DNA from: Paraburkholderia sp.
Lineage (GTDB): Bacteria > Pseudomonadota > Gammaproteobacteria > Burkholderiales > Burkholderiaceae
Direction: 5' to 3'
DNA: 64,000 nucleotides
Assembly: GCA_004322045.1 (NCBI GenBank)
Contig: SCRN01000012.1
Location: 1 to 64,000 of the forward strand
The notes below the pieces were generated by a model that worked only from the letters and a program-made list of their open reading frames with translations, searched no databases and was not told the DNA's origin. The position numbers and the translations under genes were made by a program. Positions 3,137 to 40,095 of this stretch are shown here, in pieces (position 1 is the first letter of the stretch; each line of letters begins with the position of its first letter).

Positions 3137-3790
3137 CTAGACGTTCGCCACGACGAACTGCGCGGCCACGCTTCGCGACAGCACGAGATCGGCGTTCAGG
3201 AGGTCGTTGCCGTCCAGCTTCGCGCGCACGGCAGCCTCGTCCATGCCGTACCCGCGCCATCTCGTGCTCAGGCGATCGATGAGCACGTCGCGCGGAACGT
3301 CGAGCATGACGGTGACATCGAAGAACCGTCGCAAGGGCGCCCATGCGGGATCGTCGAGCAGCAGATAGTTGCCCTCGACTAAGATGCACCGGGCCGAGGC
3401 CGGGATGATCTCCGCGCCGGCCCGCGCGATCTCGAGCGAGCGATCGAACACCGGAACGGCGATCTCTTTTCCATCGTCGGCGGCAAGGCGTTCGAGCATC
3501 GCTTCGAGCCCTCCGACATCGAACGTATGTGGCGCGCCCTTGCGGGCGCGTTGGCCGCGCGCCTCGAGCACGCGATCGTCGAAATGAAAGCCGTCCATCG
3601 CGAGGACGCAAGCGAAACCGGGGCGATCTCGGTTCAAACCGTCGCATAGCGACTGCACGAACGTGCTCTTGCCCGCGCCCGGCGCGCCTGCGATGGCGAT
3701 GAGCTGACGTGCGCCGCACTGCATGGCGCGCACGCGCTCGATTAATTGTGGGAGATCGATTCGGCTCTGCGGCGGTGTTGTGTCGTTCAC
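3137..3790 (-). CDS. nucleoside/sugar kinase-like P-loop protein (YggC/FrcK-type)
   Basis: The 217-residue protein carries a Walker A motif GAPGAGKST (about residues 36-44), a MDGFHFDD segment typical of the uridine kinase/phosphoribulokinase/pantothenate kinase superfamily, and LVEGNYLLLDDPAW, which is conserved in the YggC-like subgroup. It likely phosphorylates a nucleoside or sugar with ATP in the cytoplasm; the true substrate is unknown. The start is GTG at 3790, with CCGGAG about 9 nt upstream. It is monocistronic and runs convergent to the glyoxalase unit. Confidence 0.82.
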   Translation of the reverse strand: MNDTTPPQSRIDLPQLIERVRAMQCGARQLIAIAGAPGAGKSTFVQSLCDGLNRDRPGFACVLAMDGFHFDDRVLEARGQRARKGAPHTFDVGGLEAMLERLAADDGKEIAVPVFDRSLEIARAGAEIIPASARCILVEGNYLLLDDPAWAPLRRFFDVTVMLDVPRDVLIDRLSTRWRGYGMDEAAVRAKLDGNDLLNADLVLSRSVAAQFVVANV

Positions 3791-3932
3791 TGCAAACGGC
3801 TCCGGTGAGAGGGCTCGGACGCAGGCGTCGTGCCTGCATCAAGGCGCGCGCCATGCTACCAGCGCCCTAGATTATCAGCCTTCCCTTGCCGCACGCCCGA
3901 TGCCGCGCGTCTCAGCCTCGCGCTCGCTCTTC

Positions 3933-4028
3933 GTCGTTACGTCGTTACGTCGTCACGTCGTCACGTCGTCACGTCGTCACGTCGTCACGTCGTCACGTCG
4001 TTACGTCGTTCGGTCGTTACGTCGATCG
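3933..4028. repeat. octanucleotide tandem repeat, 12 units of GTCGTCAC-like sequence
   Basis: Twelve consecutive 8-bp units occupy 3933-4028. Six perfect GTCGTCAC copies (3949-3996) are flanked by GTCGTTAC, GTCGTTCG and GTCGATCG variants. The array overlaps the last codons and stop codon of the minus-strand deacylase gene. A unit length not divisible by three means copy-number change would shift the frame of any read-through. There are no spacers, so it is not a CRISPR array; slipped-strand expansion is the likely origin. Confidence 0.95.
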
Positions 4029-4990
4029 ATACGCGCGCCGATTCGGCCGAGCCGCACCACCGTCACGCCCGGCTGCAACTGTCTCAGCGAAGGCATGACG
4101 AGCACGCAATCGTCGTATGGCGTCACGACGGGCTCGCTGTCCGACCATCCGATCACGGTCCCCGCTTCAGGAAACGTCTCGAGCCCCGTGTAATCGCCCG
4201 CAAAACGAAAATCCATACTCTTGGCAACCACCGGTTGCGTCACGCGCACGACCGTCATCCGCTCCGGCAACGGCGCCATCCATCCGGGCGGCAGATCGGC
4301 TTCGTCGACGACACCCGCCATCAGCAGAAACCTGGCCGTGCAATCGCGCGCCACGTCCACCGCGCGCCGCTCCCAATGCTGTCCGCATTCGATCAACAAC
4401 GCGTTCTTCGCACTGCGGGGATCGCCGAACCCTTCGTAATCGCGCATGCGCTTGCCTTGCGGATGCCCTTCGTCGCTGATGACGGTAGCGGGCGCCCCCA
4501 GGTGCACGGCAAGCTCGATGCCTTTATCGAGCGGGCCCGATACGATCAGCGGCGCGCTTCGCTCGTGCATCGAATGAAGATCGAGCAACAAGTCCACGCT
4601 ATCGATGATGGGGCGAATCGCTCGCGCACGGTCGAGCTCCTGCGATCGACGTGTGGGATCGTCGAGCACGGCGGCGGTCCATACACGGTTGAAATCCTCG
4701 TCGACGTACCGCGCGGCGTCGGGCCGGGCGGGATCGAAACGCGCATAGGCCGACACGTTCGCGAACGACAGTGTGAGCCTTCCGCGCCGCGGACGCAGGC
4801 CGTGCCGGAGCAATGCGTCGACGACGATCGCACCGCACACTTCATTGCCATGCGTCAGCGCATTGATCATCACGTGGGGACCGGCGACGCCGGAATCGAA
4901 CGTATGCACGTAATCGACACCGGTGTTGCCCGGCGCGTGCAGGCCGATGTTCGGAAACTCGATTTCAATCGGATAGGCTTCGTGGGTCAC
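4001..4990 (-). CDS. AstE/aspartoacylase-family (M14-like) zinc deacylase
   Basis: The 329-residue protein matches the succinylglutamate desuccinylase/aspartoacylase family, which hydrolyses N-acyl amino acids with one zinc ion. Visible ligands are H47 and E50 (ALTHGNE) and H139 (LLLDLHSMHE), and the family's substrate loop is seen as DEDFNRVW (97-104). The start is GTG at 4990, preceded by AAGGAG; longer upstream reading in the same frame is antisense to the AraC gene. The C-terminus (ARIDRRNDRTT) and TAA are written in the octanucleotide repeat. It follows the AraC gene by 11 bp as last gene of the oxidase/importer operon, suggesting it removes an acyl group from the imported substrate or product. 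Confidence 0.85.
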   Translation of the reverse strand: MTHEAYPIEIEFPNIGLHAPGNTGVDYVHTFDSGVAGPHVMINALTHGNEVCGAIVVDALLRHGLRPRRGRLTLSFANVSAYARFDPARPDAARYVDEDFNRVWTAAVLDDPTRRSQELDRARAIRPIIDSVDLLLDLHSMHERSAPLIVSGPLDKGIELAVHLGAPATVISDEGHPQGKRMRDYEGFGDPRSAKNALLIECGQHWERRAVDVARDCTARFLLMAGVVDEADLPPGWMAPLPERMTVVRVTQPVVAKSMDFRFAGDYTGLETFPEAGTVIGWSDSEPVVTPYDDCVLVMPSLRQLQPGVTVVRLGRIGARIDRRNDRTT

Positions 4991-5001
4991 GCAATCGCTC
5001 C

Positions 5002-5391
5002 TTACGCTGAACGTCTTTGATCCATCGGCGCACGCTTGCCCGATGCGCACTTGGCTTTGCCGAGCGCCGCGCCGCCGGCGGCCACGAATGCCGTCGGCGT
5101 CATCCCGCACATGCGCTTGAAATGCCGGCCGAAATGGCTTTGATCGAAAAAGCCGACTTCGGTCGCGACCGCCACGCTCGGCACGCCTGCCAACAGCAAC
5201 GATTGCGCCCGTTTGATGCGCAAGCCGCATAGATAGCGATAAGGCGACGAACCGAAACGCTCACGAAACACGGTGGCGAAACGCGAGATGCTCAGCGCGG
5301 CGGGGGCCGCCATCTGCGCGAGCGTCAGCGGTTCGGCGAAATGCGCCTCGATATACGCCCTGGCTAGGTCAAGCCCTTCTGAACGCGTCAT
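5002..5391 (-). CDS. short AraC-type transcriptional regulator (HTH domain only)
   Basis: The 129-residue protein is almost wholly an AraC DNA-binding domain: LTLAQMAAPAALSISRFA forms the first helix-turn-helix and VAVATEVGFFDQSHFGRHF the second, followed by GMTPTAF. There is no ligand domain, which is unusual but known for SoxS/MarA-size proteins. ATG at 5391 overlaps the stop of the upstream FAD oxidase gene (ATGA). A longer reading of the frame is antisense material. It sits inside the operon it presumably regulates, between the oxidase and the deacylase. Confidence 0.88.
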   Translation of the reverse strand: MTRSEGLDLARAYIEAHFAEPLTLAQMAAPAALSISRFATVFRERFGSSPYRYLCGLRIKRAQSLLLAGVPSVAVATEVGFFDQSHFGRHFKRMCGMTPTAFVAAGGAALGKAKCASGKRAPMDQRRSA

Positions 5392-31866: not shown

Positions 31867-32610
31867 TCATACCTCTGCGGTCTTGTCGCTCAATCCCGCA
31901 TTCGCCGGCGGCGATTCGCAATATTCGATCGAGGGCGATGCGGCAGTCAGTGTGGCTACGGACACTGGCGCAATCCACAACATGTTCAACTCGCTAGCCA
32001 GCGCATCGAGCAGACGAGCGATATCGGCCCGCGCGGTTTGATGTAGCGCTTCGGCGACGATCAACACGGCTTTCGTATCTGCACGAATGGCCGACAACGC
32101 GCTTTGCCGATGCGCCCAGCGCCGCGCATGCGCGCGGTTTTCCGCATCGGCGAAAATCGCTTCGCCCGGCTCGGGATGTTCGATGTCCCCTCCGAACGAT
32201 TGGTATTGCTCGTCGCCCTTGGCAAAACGGACTTCGATCCGTTTCGCCACGTGCGCAAGATCGAAGACGGCAATCGGAACGCCAAACGCCAGCGACATCG
32301 CATTGCATAAGTCTACGAGCGGGTGCAAACGCGGCAACGCACCCTCTTTTCGGAAACGTCGAAGCAGCGATTCGGACGCGCATCGATACTGAGTGGGCTT
32401 TAGCCCCATCTGCGAGAATGCGCGCCGCCAAGCTTGCACTTCGGGCCAGTCGCCCTCGGAAGCTTGTTCTAGGCGGGAGCGGGCTACGGATTGGTAATGA
32501 GCGACGCGGGCATCGACATCGCGTTCCGCAGTGATCCTTTCGGCGTATAAGACGCCCGGCACGAGCGCGGGAAACCGTGCCCAGAGCTCGGGGGAATGTT
32601 GGAAATGCAT
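31867..32610 (-). CDS. B3/B4 tRNA-binding-domain protein
   Basis: The 247-residue protein matches the B3/B4 domain, the editing-like part of phenylalanyl-tRNA synthetase beta. Seen hallmarks are WRRAFSQMGLKPTQYRCASE, ALPRLHPLVDLCNAMSLAFG and GEAIFADAENRAHARRW. Free-standing copies may clear misaminoacylated tRNA, but their role is unproven. A good ribosome site AAAGGAGG lies six bases before ATG at 32610. It is monocistronic and convergent with the lactonase. Confidence 0.88.
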   Translation of the reverse strand: MHFQHSPELWARFPALVPGVLYAERITAERDVDARVAHYQSVARSRLEQASEGDWPEVQAWRRAFSQMGLKPTQYRCASESLLRRFRKEGALPRLHPLVDLCNAMSLAFGVPIAVFDLAHVAKRIEVRFAKGDEQYQSFGGDIEHPEPGEAIFADAENRAHARRWAHRQSALSAIRADTKAVLIVAEALHQTARADIARLLDALASELNMLWIAPVSVATLTAASPSIEYCESPPANAGLSDKTAEV

Positions 32611-32795: not shown

Positions 32796-34262
32796 TCACG
32801 CGGCTTGTCGTCTCACCACGCGGCCGGCTCGTCGCCCGATGTGGCCACCGCTGGCGAACGTGACTTCACCGTTCACGATAACGGTCTCGATGCCCGCGGA
32901 CGGTTGCGCGGGATTCTCATACGTTGCGCGGTCGCCGACAATCGCCGCATCGAACACCACGAGATCGGCGTAGCTGCCGACTTCAATCGTGCCGCGTCGC
33001 CGGATACCGAAAGTTCGTGCCGTCAGTCCCGTCATTTTCCATATCGCGGTCTCCAGCGGAAAGAGGTTCAATTCCCGGCAATAACGGCCGAGTACGCGCG
33101 GGAACGTGCCCCACAGGCGGGGGTGCGGCTTTTCGCTGCTCGGTAGACCGTCCGAGCCGATCATCGTGTGCTCGAACGCCAATATGCGCTGCACGTCCGT
33201 TTCGTCCATGCTGAAATAAATCGCGCTCGCAGGCTGCAAGCGCTTCGACGCTTCAGCGAGCGAGACGCCCCATGATGCCGCGATATCGGCGAGCTCGCGG
33301 CCAACCAACTCGGGATGGGCTGCGCTCGATGCGATCTTCACGCGGCCCTTGAGGCGCGCCTCATCCAGGTGCAGCATCGTCGAACTCGCGTCGTAGGGGT
33401 AGCAATCGAGACCGACGCATTGGCATTTCATCGCAGCCTCGATCAGCGGCAGCGTAACGATCGACCTTCCGAAGTTCTGCTCGCGAGCCAACTTGTGATG
33501 CGAGATGACGACGGGGATACCGAGCGAGCGCCCGATTTCGAGCGTCTCTTCGATCGACTCGACGCATCGGTCGGCTTCGTCCCGCATATGTGTCACGTAA
33601 ATCCCGCCCTTCTCGGCGAGCGGCTTGCAGACATCCACGATCTCCTTGGTCGTCGCTGCCGCGGCAGGCGGATAGTACGTCCCAGTCGAAAGCCCGATCG
33701 CGCCCGCATCCATCGCTTCCGACAATAGAGCCTGCATCGCCTGCACTTCATCTGGACGCGCCTCACGATCGAGGGCGTCCATCGTCGAGACGCGCAACGT
33801 GGTGTGTCCCACCATCGGAATCACATTCACCGAGGCGGGCGAGCCCTCGAGCGCGGCCAGGTAGCCGGCGAAATCGGGAAACGTCGCGGCATCGTGAGAC
33901 TCGCGGCTGGCAATCAGACTCAGCGGCATGGGACGCTGCGCGCGGGCGGCCAACGGCGCGGTGCTGACGCCGCAGTTCCCTGTGACGACGCTCGTCACGC
34001 CCTGGGAGATCTTCGTCAGCATCAGCGGATCGAGCAGCAGCGCTGCGTCGTCGTGCGTATGCGAATCGATGAAGCCTGGGGCAACGATCTTTCCTGCAGC
34101 ATCGATGACGTGGTCGGCAGACAGTTGCGACGCGTTCCCGATGAAGACGACCTGATCGTCCACGATGCCGATGTCCGCATCGACTCGAGGCCGTTTCGTT
34201 CCGTCGATCAGCGTTCCACCGCGGATCAGGATGGAGAGCTTCATGTCCTTTGGCGCAGCCAT
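32796..34262 (-). CDS. N-acyl-D-amino-acid deacylase (D-aminoacylase)
   Basis: The 488-residue amidohydrolase-fold enzyme cuts N-acyl-D-amino acids to free D-amino acids. Zinc ligands are seen in FIDSHTHDD (H68, H70), the bridging Cys in TGNCGVS (C97), His in YVTHMRDEAD and VISHHKLA, and the catalytic Asp in MIGSDGLPS. Length and motif order match the family. ATG at 34262 has AAGGA about ten bases upstream. It is transcribed divergently from the LysR gene, and a T-N11-A palindrome lies between them. Confidence 0.93.
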   Translation of the reverse strand: MAAPKDMKLSILIRGGTLIDGTKRPRVDADIGIVDDQVVFIGNASQLSADHVIDAAGKIVAPGFIDSHTHDDAALLLDPLMLTKISQGVTSVVTGNCGVSTAPLAARAQRPMPLSLIASRESHDAATFPDFAGYLAALEGSPASVNVIPMVGHTTLRVSTMDALDREARPDEVQAMQALLSEAMDAGAIGLSTGTYYPPAAAATTKEIVDVCKPLAEKGGIYVTHMRDEADRCVESIEETLEIGRSLGIPVVISHHKLAREQNFGRSIVTLPLIEAAMKCQCVGLDCYPYDASSTMLHLDEARLKGRVKIASSAAHPELVGRELADIAASWGVSLAEASKRLQPASAIYFSMDETDVQRILAFEHTMIGSDGLPSSEKPHPRLWGTFPRVLGRYCRELNLFPLETAIWKMTGLTARTFGIRRRGTIEVGSYADLVVFDAAIVGDRATYENPAQPSAGIETVIVNGEVTFASGGHIGRRAGRVVRRQAA

Positions 34263-34359
34263 GCGATTCGTATCCTTGGTTGGTGAAGGTCCGTGCCTTC
34301 GACAATGCGAATATTGCCAGGCATGTCACCAACGTCTAGTGACTTTCTGCACAGTGCCG

Positions 34360-34374
34360 ATAACTCTCGGTTAT
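34360..34374. promoter_or_regulatory. LysR-type operator 1 (ATAAC-N5-GTTAT)
   Basis: ATAACTCTCGGTTAT is a 15-bp palindrome with the T-N11-A core of LysR-type sites. It sits in the divergent region between the D-aminoacylase gene (98 bp away) and the LysR gene (84 bp away). Close relatives precede dadA and the MFS gene. Confidence 0.7.
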
Positions 34375-34457
34375 GAGCGTCGCTTTTTTTCCCGCGCATC
34401 GTTTCCGGTAGCGTAGAGTTGACGCGGAACGCAGACTCCACCGAGGAAGGAAGCAAC

Positions 34458-35369
34458 GTGCGGCTACGACATATCGAAGTGTTCAGTGCCATCATTTCGA
34501 CCGGCTCGGCAGCAGGTGCCGCCAAGTTGCTCCACATATCGCAGCCTGCGATCAGCAAGATTCTCAAGCACGCCGAGCAATCGCTGGGTTTCGCCCTGTT
34601 CATACGGGACAAAGGAAAGCTAGTGCCGACGCCCGAGGCACTCAGGCTGCGTCAAGAGCTCGAGCCACTGGAAGATCAGTTGCGGCGCATTCGGCGATTG
34701 TCGGCCACCCTGGCTCAAGGCGCGGTGCGGCCGTTGGCCGTTGCCGTCACGCCGGCGATCGCCTATAGCGTGCTACCGCCCGCTATCGCCGCGTGGCGCA
34801 AAGCATTTCCCGATGCGCAATGCGAGCTCGCCGTGTCTCACACGCGCGAAATCGAGTACGCATTGTTGCTCGGTGAAGCCGAATTGGGATTGACGATGCG
34901 TCCGATCACGCACCCCAGCTTGGTCGCGACACCCATTCTCGATTGCCACTTATGCGCGATTGCGCCGTTGGGCTGGTGGCCGGACGAAATACTGAGCCGG
35001 CCGTTGCAGCCGGAGGAGCTCGCCAATACCCCATTCGTTTCCATCGATACCGACGACTACCTTGGCGCACTGCTGGCAAATTGGCTGGCCGATAGTGCGG
35101 GCGTGGTGTCCCACATATCCGTGCAGACTTATCCCCTTGCGCGTGCCCTCGTGGAAAACGGCGTGGGCGTCGCGCTCGTGGATTCGCTCACCGCCCGATC
35201 GACCGGCGAACTGCAGACCGTTCAGACGAGGCCCGTCGCATCGGACCAGACGTTGCACGTCTACGCCGTCACGGAGCGTTCGCGGCCTCCCCTGAAGCCC
35301 GGCCAACGCCTGTTGGAGTCGCTGCGGGAAGCCGACCGAAAAAGGGCGGAGCGTACGCCCACGCCTTAG
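34458..35369 (+). CDS. LysR-family transcriptional regulator of the D-amino-acid module
   Basis: The 303-residue protein has an N-terminal winged HTH (LRHIEVFSAIISTGSAAGAA, then LLHISQPAISKILKHAEQSL) and a LysR substrate-binding domain. GTG at 34458 is chosen because of GGAAGG eight bases before it; the frame extends upstream only to a TTG. It is divergent from D-aminoacylase and followed by dadA, so it most likely responds to D-amino acids or N-acyl derivatives and binds the three palindromes described here. Confidence 0.9.
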   Translation: MRLRHIEVFSAIISTGSAAGAAKLLHISQPAISKILKHAEQSLGFALFIRDKGKLVPTPEALRLRQELEPLEDQLRRIRRLSATLAQGAVRPLAVAVTPAIAYSVLPPAIAAWRKAFPDAQCELAVSHTREIEYALLLGEAELGLTMRPITHPSLVATPILDCHLCAIAPLGWWPDEILSRPLQPEELANTPFVSIDTDDYLGALLANWLADSAGVVSHISVQTYPLARALVENGVGVALVDSLTARSTGELQTVQTRPVASDQTLHVYAVTERSRPPLKPGQRLLESLREADRKRAERTPTP

Positions 35370-35382
35370 CGGCTGAAGAGCT

Positions 35383-35397
35383 ATAACCCACGGCTAT
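35383..35397. promoter_or_regulatory. LysR-type operator 2 upstream of dadA
   Basis: ATAACCCACGGCTAT matches operator 1 at 12 of 15 positions and keeps T-N11-A. It lies 86 bp before the dadA start and 13 bp after the LysR stop. Confidence 0.65.
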
Positions 35398-35483
35398 CGC
35401 GTCGGACTCTTTTGGTATTGGACGACTTCCCCACAAGCGACGAACAATGCTCGCGTGGACTTTCGATAGGTGGGTAATACGAT

Positions 35484-36743
35484 ATGCACGTGCTGGTGTT
35501 GGGCGCCGGAGTAACCGGCCTTGCTACGGCCTGGTACCTGGCCGCTGATGGTCATAAAGTGACGATTGTCGAACGCAATGCGGACGTCGCACTCGAAAGC
35601 AGCTACGCAAATGGCGGACAGCTTTCGTACTGCTACGTCGCGCCGTTGGCCGGCCCCGGCGTGCTTTCGAAATTGCCGTGGTGGCTGACGCAACGGCATT
35701 CACCGGTGCGATTCCGTCCACGCGCCGACATGAGTCAATGGCGATGGCTGCTCAAATTCGTACTGGCATGCACGCATGCGCAAAGTGAACTTTCGACGCG
35801 CCGCCTTCTGAAGCTGTCATTTCTGAGCCGCGAACTCATGCACGATCTAATGACCCGTGAGTCCGCACTGTCGTTCGATCATACGAATACAGGAAAACTA
35901 GTGGTGTACCGCAACGCGCAAAGCTTTGCGTCCGCTCGGGACCTGATTCGATTCCAGCAGTCTCTCGGATGTGAGCAACACATACTCACGGCTCGCGAAT
36001 GCGCGCTCACGGAGCCGTCTTTGAGCAAGCTCGAATCGAAACTTGCGGGCGGAATCTTCACACCGAGCGAAGAGACGGCCGACTGCTACAAGTTTTGTCT
36101 TGCGTTGGCCCAACTGCTCAGGTCGAGAGACGTTCAATTCCTGCTCGACACGGAGATAACCTCTTTACGCCCCGACGCAACGGGCGCCACGCCTCGCGTT
36201 TCGGTCCACGCCAACGGCCAGGAAATCGCGGCCGATCAGGTCGTCTTGTGCGCCGGCACGGCAAGCGCAGATTTGCTAAAACCACTCGGTATCAGAATCC
36301 CGCTCTATCCGTTGAAGGGGTACAGCCTCACCGCCCGAATTGATGAACGCGATGCGGCCCCGCACGTGAGCGTGACGGATTACGATCGCAAGGTGGTTTA
36401 TGCGCGCTTGGGCGATCGGCTTCGGATCGCCGGTATGGCCGATATCACCGGCCGTGATGCGACGCCGGATCCCGCAAGGATCGAATCGCTGCGCGCGGAA
36501 GCCTCGCAAGCGTTTCCGCAGGCCGTCGACTTCGGCCGCGCACACGCCTGGTGCGGATTGCGGCCGGCAACGCCTACGAGCACGCCGATCATCGGCGCCA
36601 CCCGATTTGCCAATCTCTGGCTGAACCTCGGGCAAGGCGCACTCGGTTTCACGCTGGCCTTGGCAAGTGGCTTGCTCACCAGCGAGCTCGTCGGGGGGCG
36701 CAAGCCATCGGTCCCGCTCGACGGTTTTGGACTGCCAGCATAG
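35484..36743 (+). CDS. dadA: D-amino acid dehydrogenase small-subunit type (DadA-like)
   Basis: The 419-residue flavoprotein begins HVLVLGAGVTGLATAWYLAA (FAD-binding) and has ESSYANGGQLSYCYVAPLAG, a DadA hallmark, plus GQGALGFTLALASG near the C-terminus. DadA oxidises D-amino acids to 2-oxo acids and ammonia, feeding electrons to the membrane chain. Here it is expected to act on the D-amino acid made by the D-aminoacylase. The amidase gene starts 78 bp later with no obvious terminator between. Confidence 0.92.
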   Translation: MHVLVLGAGVTGLATAWYLAADGHKVTIVERNADVALESSYANGGQLSYCYVAPLAGPGVLSKLPWWLTQRHSPVRFRPRADMSQWRWLLKFVLACTHAQSELSTRRLLKLSFLSRELMHDLMTRESALSFDHTNTGKLVVYRNAQSFASARDLIRFQQSLGCEQHILTARECALTEPSLSKLESKLAGGIFTPSEETADCYKFCLALAQLLRSRDVQFLLDTEITSLRPDATGATPRVSVHANGQEIAADQVVLCAGTASADLLKPLGIRIPLYPLKGYSLTARIDERDAAPHVSVTDYDRKVVYARLGDRLRIAGMADITGRDATPDPARIESLRAEASQAFPQAVDFGRAHAWCGLRPATPTSTPIIGATRFANLWLNLGQGALGFTLALASGLLTSELVGGRKPSVPLDGFGLPA

Positions 36744-36821
36744 GGCGCGGCCGCGGATTGAACCAGTGCGTGCAACAAATCGTATCGCGCTGCGGCGGTG
36801 CGATCCTGAGCAGAGAAGCCA

Positions 36822-38693
36822 ATGGATACATCGATCGATCATTCAACACCCCAGGACTCCGAACGCAATTCCGGCTATGACGTAACGGAAAAATCGGTGC
36901 AGGAGCTACATGCCGCGCAGGCCTCGGGGCTCGTGACGGCTTGCGAGCTCGTGCGGGGATACATCGACAGAATCCAGGCATTCGATCGGGATGGGCCCAG
37001 GCTAAACTCGATTGTCGCGCTCAGCCCGTCCGCATTGGATGAGGCGGCGGCGCTCGACGCCGAACGCCGCGCAAACGGTATGCGCGGGCTGCTTCACGGC
37101 GTTCCCGTACTGGTCAAAGACAATATCGACGTTGCCGGCCTGCCGACGTCGGGTGGCTCGCTGGCATTTGCAAACCTCTATCCTGAGACGGACGCTTTTT
37201 TGGTCCGAAAACTACGGGCTGCCGGCGCCATCGTGTTAGGCAAGACGACGATGCACGAATTGGCTGCCGGCGTAACGAACGCGTCGTCGTTGACCGGCTT
37301 TACACGCAACCCATACGATCCGCGTCGCGTGCCCGGTGGATCGAGCGGCGGCACGGCCGCGGCCGTCGCAGCAAGCTTCGCTGCTGTCGGCATCGGCAGC
37401 GATACGTGCGGCTCGCTGCGTCTCCCGGCGTCGTGTCAGTCGCTCTATACGCTGCGCTTGTCGCGCGGCCTCGCGAGCCGCTCGGGAATGATGCCTCTGT
37501 CGAACACTCAGGACATCCCCGGGCCGCTCGCTCGAACCGTTGCCGATCTTGCCATCGCGCTCGACGCGATCGTGGGTAATGATCCCGGGGATGCTTCGAC
37601 AGTCGACGCGCAAGGACATATTCCTCGCTCGTACTTGGCTGGTATCCAGGCCAATGCGCTGGCGGGGTTGAGGATCGGTGTGTTGCCGCGACTGTTCGGA
37701 AGCGCTGCCGATGAAGTGGAGGTGTCGGAGCTGACCCGCCAGGCGTTGCATACGATGCAGGGGCTAGGCGCGCAACTGGTCGACGTGGACATCCCAGACC
37801 TGGAGCAATCGATGCGAGCGAGCAATGTGATCGCGTACGAGTTCCGCTCCGCCTTGGCCGGCTACCTGCGTCGTTATCCCGCTTCAGCGATAGGCTCGCT
37901 GGGCGATGTCATTGCGGCCGGTTTGCACCACGAGCAACTCGACACGGTGCTGAGAGCCAGAAATGCAACGCAAGGCGCCGATAGCGACGCGTACCGGCAT
38001 GCCATTGCGCAGCAAGCGAAGCTGCGTGGCGTCGTCGAAGCCTGTATGGAGCAGCACGGGGTGGACGTATTGGCCTACCCAGCGTTGCGACGCAAGCCGA
38101 CGCTGATCGGGGAAATCTTGCCGGCCGACAACAGTCAACTTGCGCCGGGCACGGGACTGCCGTCCATGGTGATGCCGGCCGGATGGACGCGTGACGCGCT
38201 GCCGGTCGGCATCGAACTCATGGGTTCGCGCTACTCCGAGCAGGACTTGCTCAGCTACGCGAGCCACTGGGAGGCGCAAGCATGGACTCGCGTGCCGCCT
38301 TATTGCACGCCCTCTCTGTATGCGCTTTCGCTATCGAGCCGAACGATTCGCGGATGCGTGCACCTGTGCGAGCAAGGCGACGACGAAGTAACCGTACGCA
38401 TCGACTATACGTTGGACAGGCTGACGGCCGAACTGAGTTACGAGGCTTCGGCGGGGGCGACCCTTGCCGATCGGCTGATCGCCGTGACCGCCCATGCCAT
38501 GCAGGATCAACTGGTCGGTCCTGTATTTGCGCACCTGCTTGTGCGAGGCGAAAGAAAAAGAGCCGACAGGCTCGCGCTCGCGCCTCATCAACTCGCATGG
38601 TGGGTGAACGGTGAGGTCGTGTTGCGCCTGACCACCACGAACGGAACGCAAGGGATGGTGCCGGCGCGGTTCGGCACAGCCTCGGAGGCGTAG
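36822..38693 (+). CDS. amidase-signature hydrolase with C-terminal extension
   Basis: The 623-residue protein has the Ser-cisSer-Lys amidase core: Lys in PVLVKDNIDVAGLPTSGGS, Ser in RRVPGGSSGGTAAAVA and the cis-Ser/nucleophile pair in IGSDTCGSLRLPAS. The usual nucleophile motif is G(T/S)DTGGS, so Gly to Cys is a change beside the active site. The core ends near residue 505, and an extra 110-residue domain of unknown type follows. Overall it resembles allophanate hydrolase/AtzF-length amidases. It is grouped with dadA and may release D-amino acids from amides. Confidence 0.85.
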   Translation: MDTSIDHSTPQDSERNSGYDVTEKSVQELHAAQASGLVTACELVRGYIDRIQAFDRDGPRLNSIVALSPSALDEAAALDAERRANGMRGLLHGVPVLVKDNIDVAGLPTSGGSLAFANLYPETDAFLVRKLRAAGAIVLGKTTMHELAAGVTNASSLTGFTRNPYDPRRVPGGSSGGTAAAVAASFAAVGIGSDTCGSLRLPASCQSLYTLRLSRGLASRSGMMPLSNTQDIPGPLARTVADLAIALDAIVGNDPGDASTVDAQGHIPRSYLAGIQANALAGLRIGVLPRLFGSAADEVEVSELTRQALHTMQGLGAQLVDVDIPDLEQSMRASNVIAYEFRSALAGYLRRYPASAIGSLGDVIAAGLHHEQLDTVLRARNATQGADSDAYRHAIAQQAKLRGVVEACMEQHGVDVLAYPALRRKPTLIGEILPADNSQLAPGTGLPSMVMPAGWTRDALPVGIELMGSRYSEQDLLSYASHWEAQAWTRVPPYCTPSLYALSLSSRTIRGCVHLCEQGDDEVTVRIDYTLDRLTAELSYEASAGATLADRLIAVTAHAMQDQLVGPVFAHLLVRGERKRADRLALAPHQLAWWVNGEVVLRLTTTNGTQGMVPARFGTASEA

Positions 38694-38724
38694 ATTCGAC
38701 AGCCCATCCGGGCTCGCCGTATCC

Positions 38725-38739
38725 ATAACGCATGTTTAT
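38725..38739. promoter_or_regulatory. LysR-type operator 3 upstream of MFS transporter
   Basis: ATAACGCATGTTTAT shares the ATAAC and TAT ends and the T-N11-A spacing of operators 1 and 2, and keeps C at position 7 and G at position 10. It lies 114 bp before the MFS start and 31 bp after the amidase stop. Confidence 0.55.
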
Positions 38740-38853
38740 AGGCAACCGCCATATCGTCAATTGCTTCGAGATATTGGCGCGCGCAAATTCAAAGCTTGGC
38801 GCTTGTCGAATCCGTTTCGACAAGTCGAAAGAACCAAGCACAAAGGAGCCGTC

Positions 38854-40095
38854 ATGGAGACATCAACATTGAGTACAAAGAACTGGCGTAAGGTGGCGCT
38901 GATCGCCGTCATTTTCATTGCCTGGGTAGTGGCGTACGCCGACCGGATCGTCATAAGCACGGCCGTGATTCCTATTGCACATGAATTCGGACTCAACGAT
39001 CAGGAGCGCGGATACGTCCTCGGCGCTTTCTACTTTACATACGCCTTCATGCAACTGGGAGGAGGATGGCTGGCCGACCGATATGGTGCGAAGCGCGTGC
39101 TGACCGCATGTATCGTCATGTGGTCGATCTTCACCGCGCTGACCGGAATGTCCTGGTCGTTCGCGTCGCTCGTCGTCATTCGGTTGCTGTTTGGCATCGG
39201 CGAAGGCGGCTTCGCGCCGGCCAATGCCGTCGCGATTGCGGAGAATTTCGAGAAGCAGGAGCGCGGCCGGGTGCAATCGTTGATGTCCAGCACCGTGTTC
39301 CTCGGCAATGCGGCCGGGTCTATTTTCGTCGCTGCCGTCATTGCCGCTTACGGCTGGCGTTGGACGTTTCCCGCATTGGGTGTATGCGGTGTCATGGTCG
39401 CCGCGCTATTCGTCTTTATGCTCAAACCCCGTGCGCACGTTCGCAGCAAGAGCGGCACCGCCAGAAACCGTCAGCAGTATCTGGAACTGCTGCGCAATCC
39501 CATGACGTGGCGCGTGGGCCTGATCTGGTTTTGCAGCAGCACGCTGTTCCTCGGGCTGCAATCGTGGATGCCATCCTATTTGCTGAAAGTAAAAGGCATC
39601 GACATTCAACATATCGGTATTGCGTCGATGATCCCCTATATCGCGGCATTCTTCGGCACCAATGCCGTCGGGCATGTCATCGACAAGGCGGGCGCGCAAC
39701 GATCGAAGCCGCTGATGGCATGCGGCGCGCTGCTTTGCGCACTTTTCCTCATTCTGATGATGACGACGTCCTCGCTGCCGCTGCTCGTGCTCTATTGGAC
39801 GTTGTGCATCTGCGCATTCACGATGGTCTACGCAACGGTCTTTACCGTTCCGCTCAAGTATTTTCCGAACGAGAAGGTCGGCAGCGCGACGGGCCTCATC
39901 AACTTCGGCGGTCAAATGGCCGGATTTACCGCGCCCGTGGTCATGGGGCATCTGATCGGAGCGTTCAACGGCTCGTACGTCGGGGCTTTCTCATACCTCG
40001 TGCTTTCGGCAGCGATCGCCTGCGTTATCGCGTGCACCTTGAAGACGCCGACGACGAATCACGATCCAGCGCACGTGGCGCTGGCGAACCCGTGA
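38854..40095 (+). CDS. MFS transporter, anion:cation symporter (ACS) type
   Basis: The 413-residue inner-membrane protein has about 12 hydrophobic helices. WVVAYADRIVISTAVIPIAH and GWLADRYGAKRVL are the first helix and the A-motif loop of the MFS; FGIGEGGFAPANAVAIAENF is typical of the ACS subfamily, which imports organic acids. Given its place, it may import the acylated D-amino acid or export a product. AAAGGAG lies 5 bases before the ATG at 38854; an upstream in-frame start has no such site. Confidence 0.9.
   Translation: METSTLSTKNWRKVALIAVIFIAWVVAYADRIVISTAVIPIAHEFGLNDQERGYVLGAFYFTYAFMQLGGGWLADRYGAKRVLTACIVMWSIFTALTGMSWSFASLVVIRLLFGIGEGGFAPANAVAIAENFEKQERGRVQSLMSSTVFLGNAAGSIFVAAVIAAYGWRWTFPALGVCGVMVAALFVFMLKPRAHVRSKSGTARNRQQYLELLRNPMTWRVGLIWFCSSTLFLGLQSWMPSYLLKVKGIDIQHIGIASMIPYIAAFFGTNAVGHVIDKAGAQRSKPLMACGALLCALFLILMMTTSSLPLLVLYWTLCICAFTMVYATVFTVPLKYFPNEKVGSATGLINFGGQMAGFTAPVVMGHLIGAFNGSYVGAFSYLVLSAAIACVIACTLKTPTTNHDPAHVALANP

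Follow-up and report, generated by a model that had tools for sequence, protein, structure and literature searches.

A gene cluster in Paraburkholderia sp. (assembly GCA_004322045.1, contig SCRN01000012.1), which encodes a LysR-type regulator, a D-aminoacylase-type enzyme, a D-amino-acid dehydrogenase (dadA), an amidase and an MFS transporter, carries three similar 15-bp palindromes within 4.4 kb; the stretch of DNA analyzed, 64,000 nucleotides long, is called the window throughout. From sequence comparison we consider it probable (about 0.85) that the palindromes are high-affinity operators of the cluster's own LysR, and that this protein activates the D-aminoacylase, dadA-amidase and MFS units for the use of D-amino acids. 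Co-regulation of these units is well supported by the comparison; beyond it, we infer binding, activation, autoregulation, the start sites, the ligand and the enzyme substrates. Such a system provides one LysR subgroup with an operator consensus and a promoter spacing that have been tested by comparison, ties D-aminoacylase genes to the control of D-amino-acid dehydrogenase, and makes such regulons findable by sequence in Burkholderiaceae and Pseudomonadaceae. A partial literature search found no regulator of a D-aminoacylase gene, which is weak evidence of absence.

Three palindromes in the window

The palindromes are ATAACTCTCGGTTAT at 34360–34374 (operator 1), in the promoter region between the divergent D-aminoacylase gene and lysR, ATAACCCACGGCTAT at 35383–35397 (operator 2), before dadA and the amidase gene, and ATAACGCATGTTTAT at 38725–38739 (operator 3), before the MFS gene. 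The initial annotation of this DNA had placed 15-mers at 34360, 35383 and 38725 and had ascribed the form T-N11-A to all of them; they are present there, the form holds in three of three, and they are the sole exact matches in the window to its consensus ATAACNCNNGKYTAT. The pattern that it described as shared, ATAACnCnnG(G/T)(T/C)TAT, is exact in the three sites, but its fixed C at position 7 is fortuitous and is lost in relatives, for example in locus L041, which has ATAACCGCCGGTTAT. The core appears to be ATAA(C)...(G)(T/C)TAT, and the consensus is best written ATAACC-N3-GGTTAT. The bases between site and start codon number 83 for lysR, 97 for the D-aminoacylase gene, 86 for dadA and 114 for the MFS gene.

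Because sites should not be judged by a pattern read off themselves, a 17-bp weight matrix was built from relatives only: it was trained on 15 distinct sites of the g10, g21 and Stutzerimonas-type loci described below, with no Trinickia-type locus and with L074 left out. The window's top three matches to this matrix are operators 2, 1 and 3, in this order (17.5, 16.8, and 15.6 bits), and the fourth match scores 4.9 bits. Forty Markov controls of 64 kb gave 0.05 matches of that strength each, the best control scoring 17.3 bits. Furthermore, the simpler pattern ATAAC-N7-TAT has four strand matches at three places in the window where 0.18 are expected, a number that none of 100 shuffles reaches; genome-wide (6.0 Mb) it occurs at 17 distinct places with 20 strand matches, and three of the places are inside the 4.4 kb of the cluster.

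Conservation of the sites in relatives

The initial annotation had proposed to look for the palindrome in relatives that carry the cluster, and its absence there would have counted against the regulon. It is kept there before the orthologues of lysR, dadA, the D-aminoacylase gene and the MFS gene, even where the gene order is different. The same gene order with all three sites is found in L040, from a P. caledonica record, and in L041, from T. diaoshuihuensis, whose LysR proteins are 85–86% identical to that of the window and whose other four proteins are 77–92% identical. Of 11 genomes of the genus, which is probably Trinickia, four have a LysR match at E 1e-40, only the window's genome and G004 closely (100 and 84%) and the others at 41–43%; in the family, matches at E 1e-60 occur in 11 of 398 genomes.

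More distant loci combine the same elements differently. In five of the six g10 loci (LysR 61–63% identical), the D-aminoacylase and MFS genes lie on the left, followed by a site, lysR, another site and dadA, so arranged that the MFS gene is divergent from lysR and lysR is followed by dadA on the same strand; the equivalent of operator 2 is kept in all six. The three g21 loci have a single MFS-D-aminoacylase-dadA operon divergent from lysR over one site, and the 22 Stutzerimonas-type loci (LysR 47–51%) have dadA and lysR divergent over CATAACC-N3-GGTTATG or a near variant. Sites were counted over 71 non-identical loci out of 92, 21 having been dropped for identical upstream DNA. ATAA-N7-TTAT with at most one mismatch is found within 250 bp of lysR in 52 of the 52 loci with a LysR of 43% identity or more, 48 of them exact; identity was taken from the best tblastn segment, and the 43% split was chosen after site-less loci had been seen. 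Four control patterns, two reordered and two of altered spacing, gave 0, 2, 0, and 0 at those 52 loci.

Promoter spacing and a proposed mechanism

A −35-like element is located at a nearly fixed distance past the palindrome. Conservation points to CTAGACG (34333–34339, minus strand) as the −35 of the D-aminoacylase gene, 20–21 nt from operator 1, with a proposed −10, CAATAT, at 34311–34316. The likely −35 of dadA is TTGGACG (35418–35424, plus strand), 20–21 nt from operator 2, with AACAAT at 35443–35448 as −10, and that of the MFS gene is TTGCTT (38761–38766, plus strand), 21 nt from operator 3, with CAAATT at 38784–38789. Offsets have the last base of the palindrome as their origin; with TTGACA as the reference, a start at 21 gives the better frame.

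Indeed, TTGGACG is present 20–21 nt past the palindrome in nine of nine Burkholderiaceae lysR-dadA gaps, and the dadA promoters of the 22 Stutzerimonas-type loci have TTGGCC or a variant at 20–21 nt. CTAGAC or TTAGAC stands in the same place in three of three D-aminoacylase promoters (window, L040, and L041), TTAGAC in the g10 MFS promoters (5/6), TTCGAC in the g21 operons (3/3), and TTGCTT or TTGCAT, at 21 nt, in the Trinickia-type MFS promoters. Matches to TTGACA over 32 promoters peak at offsets 14, 16, 20, and 21 (3.28, 2.41, 2.81, and 3.22), the best of 500 shuffles giving 2.31, and with 10 representative promoters none of 2000 mononucleotide shuffles reaches the maximum TTGACA score; the 32 promoters and then the 10 representatives were hand-picked, and the MFS-side row of L074 was left out.

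If the −35 elements are rightly placed, the palindrome would be centered near −63 to −65. According to PMC5002191, a center at about −65 is the usual high-affinity position of LysR-type activators; CynR has a predicted ATAA-n7-TTAT at −66, and for OccR the best site is at −64. A LysR dimer would thus sit on ATAACC-N3-GGTTAT, about 63–65 bp upstream of each target start. Once a D-amino acid is bound, another dimer would settle on the conserved DNA by the −35, where a TTTCAT-like block is a candidate activation site, and RNA polymerase would be recruited. The operator beside lysR may provide autoregulation. The regulator would act like the D-glutamate regulators of the DguR/DgcR type, and the regulon would serve uptake and deacylation of N-acyl-D-amino acids, possibly amide cleavage, and then oxidation of the freed D-amino acid. 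We read it as a real LysR regulon with nothing unusual in its mechanism, resembling that of DguR and enlarged by further genes.

The site follows the regulator

Thirty D-aminoacylase loci were fetched, out of many more matches. Five of them have this LysR and show sites, and five are g10 loci whose promoter is beyond the 1.5-kb flank. The other 20 are without this LysR, and the site is found in none of them, one-mismatch sites being listed at D-aminoacylase loci only where ATAAC or GTTAT is intact in one of the halves; 7 of the 20 have a distant LysR (23–27%), and none of these 20 genomes is among the 11 LysR-positive genomes of the family. A composite of the site, 20 nt and TTNGAC is exact at two places only in the 11 genomes of the genus: the dadA promoter of the window and the D-aminoacylase promoter of G004. 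As for a wider regulon in the window's own genome, the other 14 places with ATAAC-N7-TAT are not beside recognizable D-amino-acid genes, as judged by eye from starts of open reading frames (ORFs).

Palindromes of a related design are found in Trinickia-genus genomes: ATACC-N5-GGTAT-like palindromes stand 20 nt from TTGGAC in G003 (C13:11496, 12472), G004 (C54:215841, 216816), G009 (C43:485090, 486067), G002 (C2:830244), and G010 (C2:365550), in three genomes as opposite-strand pairs about 975 bp apart. Perhaps these are another set of LysR-type operators with the same spacing. In G007, whose LysR relatives are only 41–43% identical, ATAACCAGCGGTTAT (L143, C9:1214–1253, minus strand) is followed after 19 nt by TTGGAC before an ORF that by eye resembles an ornithine-cyclodeaminase-type protein.

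Relatives with DadA-RidA clusters and DgcR

In Pseudomonadaceae, the family of the L044 genome, lysR is divergent from dadA-ridA in 14 of 20 loci, and the palindrome is in the lysR-dadA gap of 12 of these 14, mostly with the same spacing. In L112 (5033–5047) and L113 (4980–4994) the operator is at or after the end of lysR, and the gap between lysR and dadA showed none. The ORF after the operator in L112 encodes a family-5 solute-binding protein, which suggests that the regulon there includes a peptide ABC transporter. L044 has RidA and an NMT1-like binding protein, and the next gene in L117 resembles that of a binding protein for glutamate/aspartate, although its 347 bits fall short of the cut-off (375). 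L124 carries genes for MFS, RidA, DadA and D-aminoacylase, the last incomplete at the end of the locus, together with this LysR behind one one-mismatch site, and can be read as a bridge between the D-aminoacylase/MFS and DadA-RidA arrangements. ATAACCCAGGGTTAT, found downstream of RidA in seven loci (L116–L122, approximately 2100–2191), was rejected as an operator, as it is close to or within the beginning of the binding-protein gene (in L117, where the ORF was checked, it is inside) and is probably a coding coincidence.

In a LysR tree of 50 hand-chosen rows, among which P. aeruginosa DguR does not appear by name, the Burkholderiaceae and Pseudomonadaceae proteins group at 100/99 (37 rows). 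This group includes the LysR proteins of the DadA-RidA clusters and also six Pseudomonadaceae paralogues without DadA linkage, and DgcR falls outside it on a long branch. The grouping with LysR proteins of DadA-RidA clusters therefore suggests a DguR-like regulon extended by D-aminoacylase, amidase and MFS. In a DadA tree of 28 hand-chosen rows, the window's DadA is in a nine-row Burkholderiaceae group of LysR-linked proteins (96/97); the 22 LysR-linked DadAs do not form a single clade, because L137 and L138, the other DadA-like proteins of the genome, fall on the Pseudomonadaceae side (87/94). A search of the plasmid collection found just two relatives, LysR proteins of Pseudoalteromonas annotated as DgcR (39% identical, over 82%). 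In strain CF6-2, dgcR has dgcN and dgcA as its neighbors, and ATAAACATAGGTTAT, which matches the pattern exactly, lies in the dgcR-dgcN gap.

Genes of the cluster

The gene for the D-aminoacylase-type amidohydrolase (32796–34262, minus strand, ATG at 34262; Pfam Amidohydro_3) has as closest solved relative of its product D-aminoacylase 1M7J (566.6 bits), which we take to be that of Alcaligenes and to whose family the divergent target gene of the window thus belongs; N-acyl-D-glutamate deacylase 3GIP scores 409.8 bits. By family resemblance, a putative activity on N-acyl-D-amino acids can be assigned. A second D-aminoacylase-like gene in the same genome (G000 C42:130974–132398) is 50% identical to it. 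In relatives, a gene for an M81/MlrC-type metallopeptidase (Pfam) is found between the MFS and D-aminoacylase genes of L069 (4050–5510, LysR-forward orientation), and L073 has a similar ORF (3770–5230). In the window, a gene for a B3/4-domain protein (31867–32610) adjoins the D-aminoacylase gene, and there is no site before it among the window's twelve best matrix matches.

The DguR/DgcR-like lysR (34458–35369, plus strand, GTG start at 34458) encodes the Pfam domains HTH_1 (PF00126, 61.4 bits) and LysR_substrate (PF03466, 102.5 bits), both above cut-off. Its best NCBIfam model is NF008239, the E. coli LysR equivalog, at 124.5 bits, below the curated cut-off of 288; another gene of the same genome reaches 260.4 bits on this model, and the next LysR in a protein search of the own genome is 28% identical. 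The dadA-like gene for an FAD-type D-amino-acid dehydrogenase (35484–36743, plus strand, ATG at 35484) reaches 488.9 bits on NF001933 (cut-off 383). After a gap of 78 bp without a palindrome follows the gene for an amidase-signature enzyme with an extra C-terminal part (36822–38693, plus strand; Pfam Amidase over residues 42–477 of 623), whose best-scoring solved relatives are the peptide amidases 5AC3/1M21; with no site of its own, it is probably cotranscribed with dadA. The MFS transporter gene (38854–40095, plus strand, ATG at 38854; Pfam MFS_1) has TIGR00893, below cut-off, as its best NCBIfam model.

Contrary evidence, ligand and alternatives

A number of results weigh against the operator reading. 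With two mismatches, the consensus of the initial annotation has six matches in the window against 3.8 expected, and 17 of 100 shuffles reach six, which is not significant; ATAAC-N7-TAT is not enriched across the 6.0-Mb genome (20 strand matches vs. 30 for the reversed control). The composite with one mismatch occurs at 18 places in the 11 genomes, most of them outside the cluster, against 4 for the reversed control, and in the own genome, with at most one mismatch, only at the window's dadA and D-aminoacylase promoters, the reversed control also giving two. The g10 locus L074 is without the left part, its left-hand gene is different and its lysR-side site is degenerate. Where LysR is less than 43% identical, the site is present in 8 of 19 loci, compared with 1–4 of 19 for the control patterns. 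No palindrome was found in the fetched DNA of five loci with a nearly identical helix-turn-helix (KILKHAEQ kept; L063, L064, L066, L067, and L068), and no site accompanies three LysR proteins of Trinickia-genus genomes at 40–42% identity. A consensus scan gives no sigma-70 match at the proposed promoters, and the offset-14 peak, formed by the TTTCAT-like block, is as high as that at offset 21 over the 32 promoters. The site in the dgcR gap is a single exact match in AT-rich DNA, with one-mismatch matches not enriched (16 vs. 13.4 expected). Finally, a D-aminoacylase nearer to 1M7J than to N-acyl-D-glutamate deacylase sits uneasily with D-glutamate as ligand.

The ligand would most likely be a D-amino acid in free form, whether D-glutamate or some other; a D-amino acid is the likelier kind because the LysR is kin to the regulators of dgc loci and of loci like dguRABC. 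The candidates are D-glutamate, neutral D-amino acids and N-acyl forms. A reading restricted to D-glutamate was not adopted because 1M7J, and not 3GIP, is the nearer relative of the D-aminoacylase and because the DadA tree leaves the substrate undecided.

It is unlikely that the regulon is for other substrates, such as opine-like compounds or N-acylated or amidated peptides, with such a compound as the ligand. The peptide-amidase likeness of the amidase, the metallopeptidase gene of L069 with its counterpart in L073, and the site before a solute-binding protein gene in L112 would fit this, as would the presence of the opine regulator OccR among LysR-type regulators with such a site shape (PMC5002191); against it, DadA accompanies the LysR in Trinickia-type, g10, g21 and Stutzerimonas-type loci as well as in the 14 Pseudomonadaceae loci, and the annotated relative DgcR has dgcN and dgcA as neighbors.

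Even less probable is that the palindromes are operators from which the regulator mainly represses the units until substrate arrives. Some LysR-type proteins do repress, as is generally known, and operator 1 is upstream of lysR itself; DguR, for its part, is reportedly an activator. A center near −63 to −65 together with a weak, non-consensus promoter is the geometry of an activator (PMC5002191), and DguR is described as controlling the dguA promoter for the catabolism of D-Glu (PMC10926688), both of which argue against repression. Accidental likeness of AT-rich intergenic 15-mers, with which the unenriched two-mismatch and genome-wide counts would agree, has a negligible chance of being right and was rejected, as it is contradicted by the ranking with an independent matrix, the ATAAC-N7-TAT shuffles, conservation in 52 of 52 loci, the near-fixed promoter spacing, and co-occurrence with the regulator.

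With operators of an activating LysR as the preferred reading, a broader view of its evolution is possible, and we offer it tentatively: a portable promoter module (palindrome, 20–21 nt, and TTnGACG) with a DguR-like hub may have drawn in another set of genes for uptake and degradation from lineage to lineage, in the window those for D-aminoacylase, a peptide-amidase-like enzyme and an MFS carrier, so that a sensor of free D-amino acids would drive scavenging of N-acylated or amidated D-amino acids or of peptides with D-residues.

Comparison with known systems

The closest parallel is the DguR-dguABC system for D-Glu and D-Gln utilization in Pseudomonas aeruginosa, which is like the window in having a LysR gene beside that of a DadA-type dehydrogenase; the comparison was made via the Pseudomonadaceae loci. 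Its layout is presumably that of a LysR gene divergent from a DadA-type dehydrogenase operon with RidA and a binding protein, and DguR is reportedly an activator with a 19-bp motif. In the window, in contrast, lysR and dadA share one strand, the D-aminoacylase gene is the divergent one, and D-aminoacylase, amidase and MFS genes take the place of those for RidA and the binding protein, with three operators. Because lysR and dadA are not divergent, the regulon is called DguR-like and not dguRABC. For D-Glu catabolism, DguR is described as regulating the dguA promoter (He et al., 2014, as cited in PMC10926688).

DgcR of Pseudoalteromonas sp. CF6-2 resembles the window's regulator in its 39% identical LysR sequence and in the palindrome of its dgcR-dgcN gap, whereas its neighbors are dgcN and dgcA and those of the window's LysR are dadA and the D-aminoacylase gene. 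A further parallel is found in OccR, which controls octopine genes, and CynR. Their operators share with the window's sites the 15-bp inverted repeat and the distance to the start (PMC5002191), while the sites compared here typically have CC-N3-GG as their inner part.

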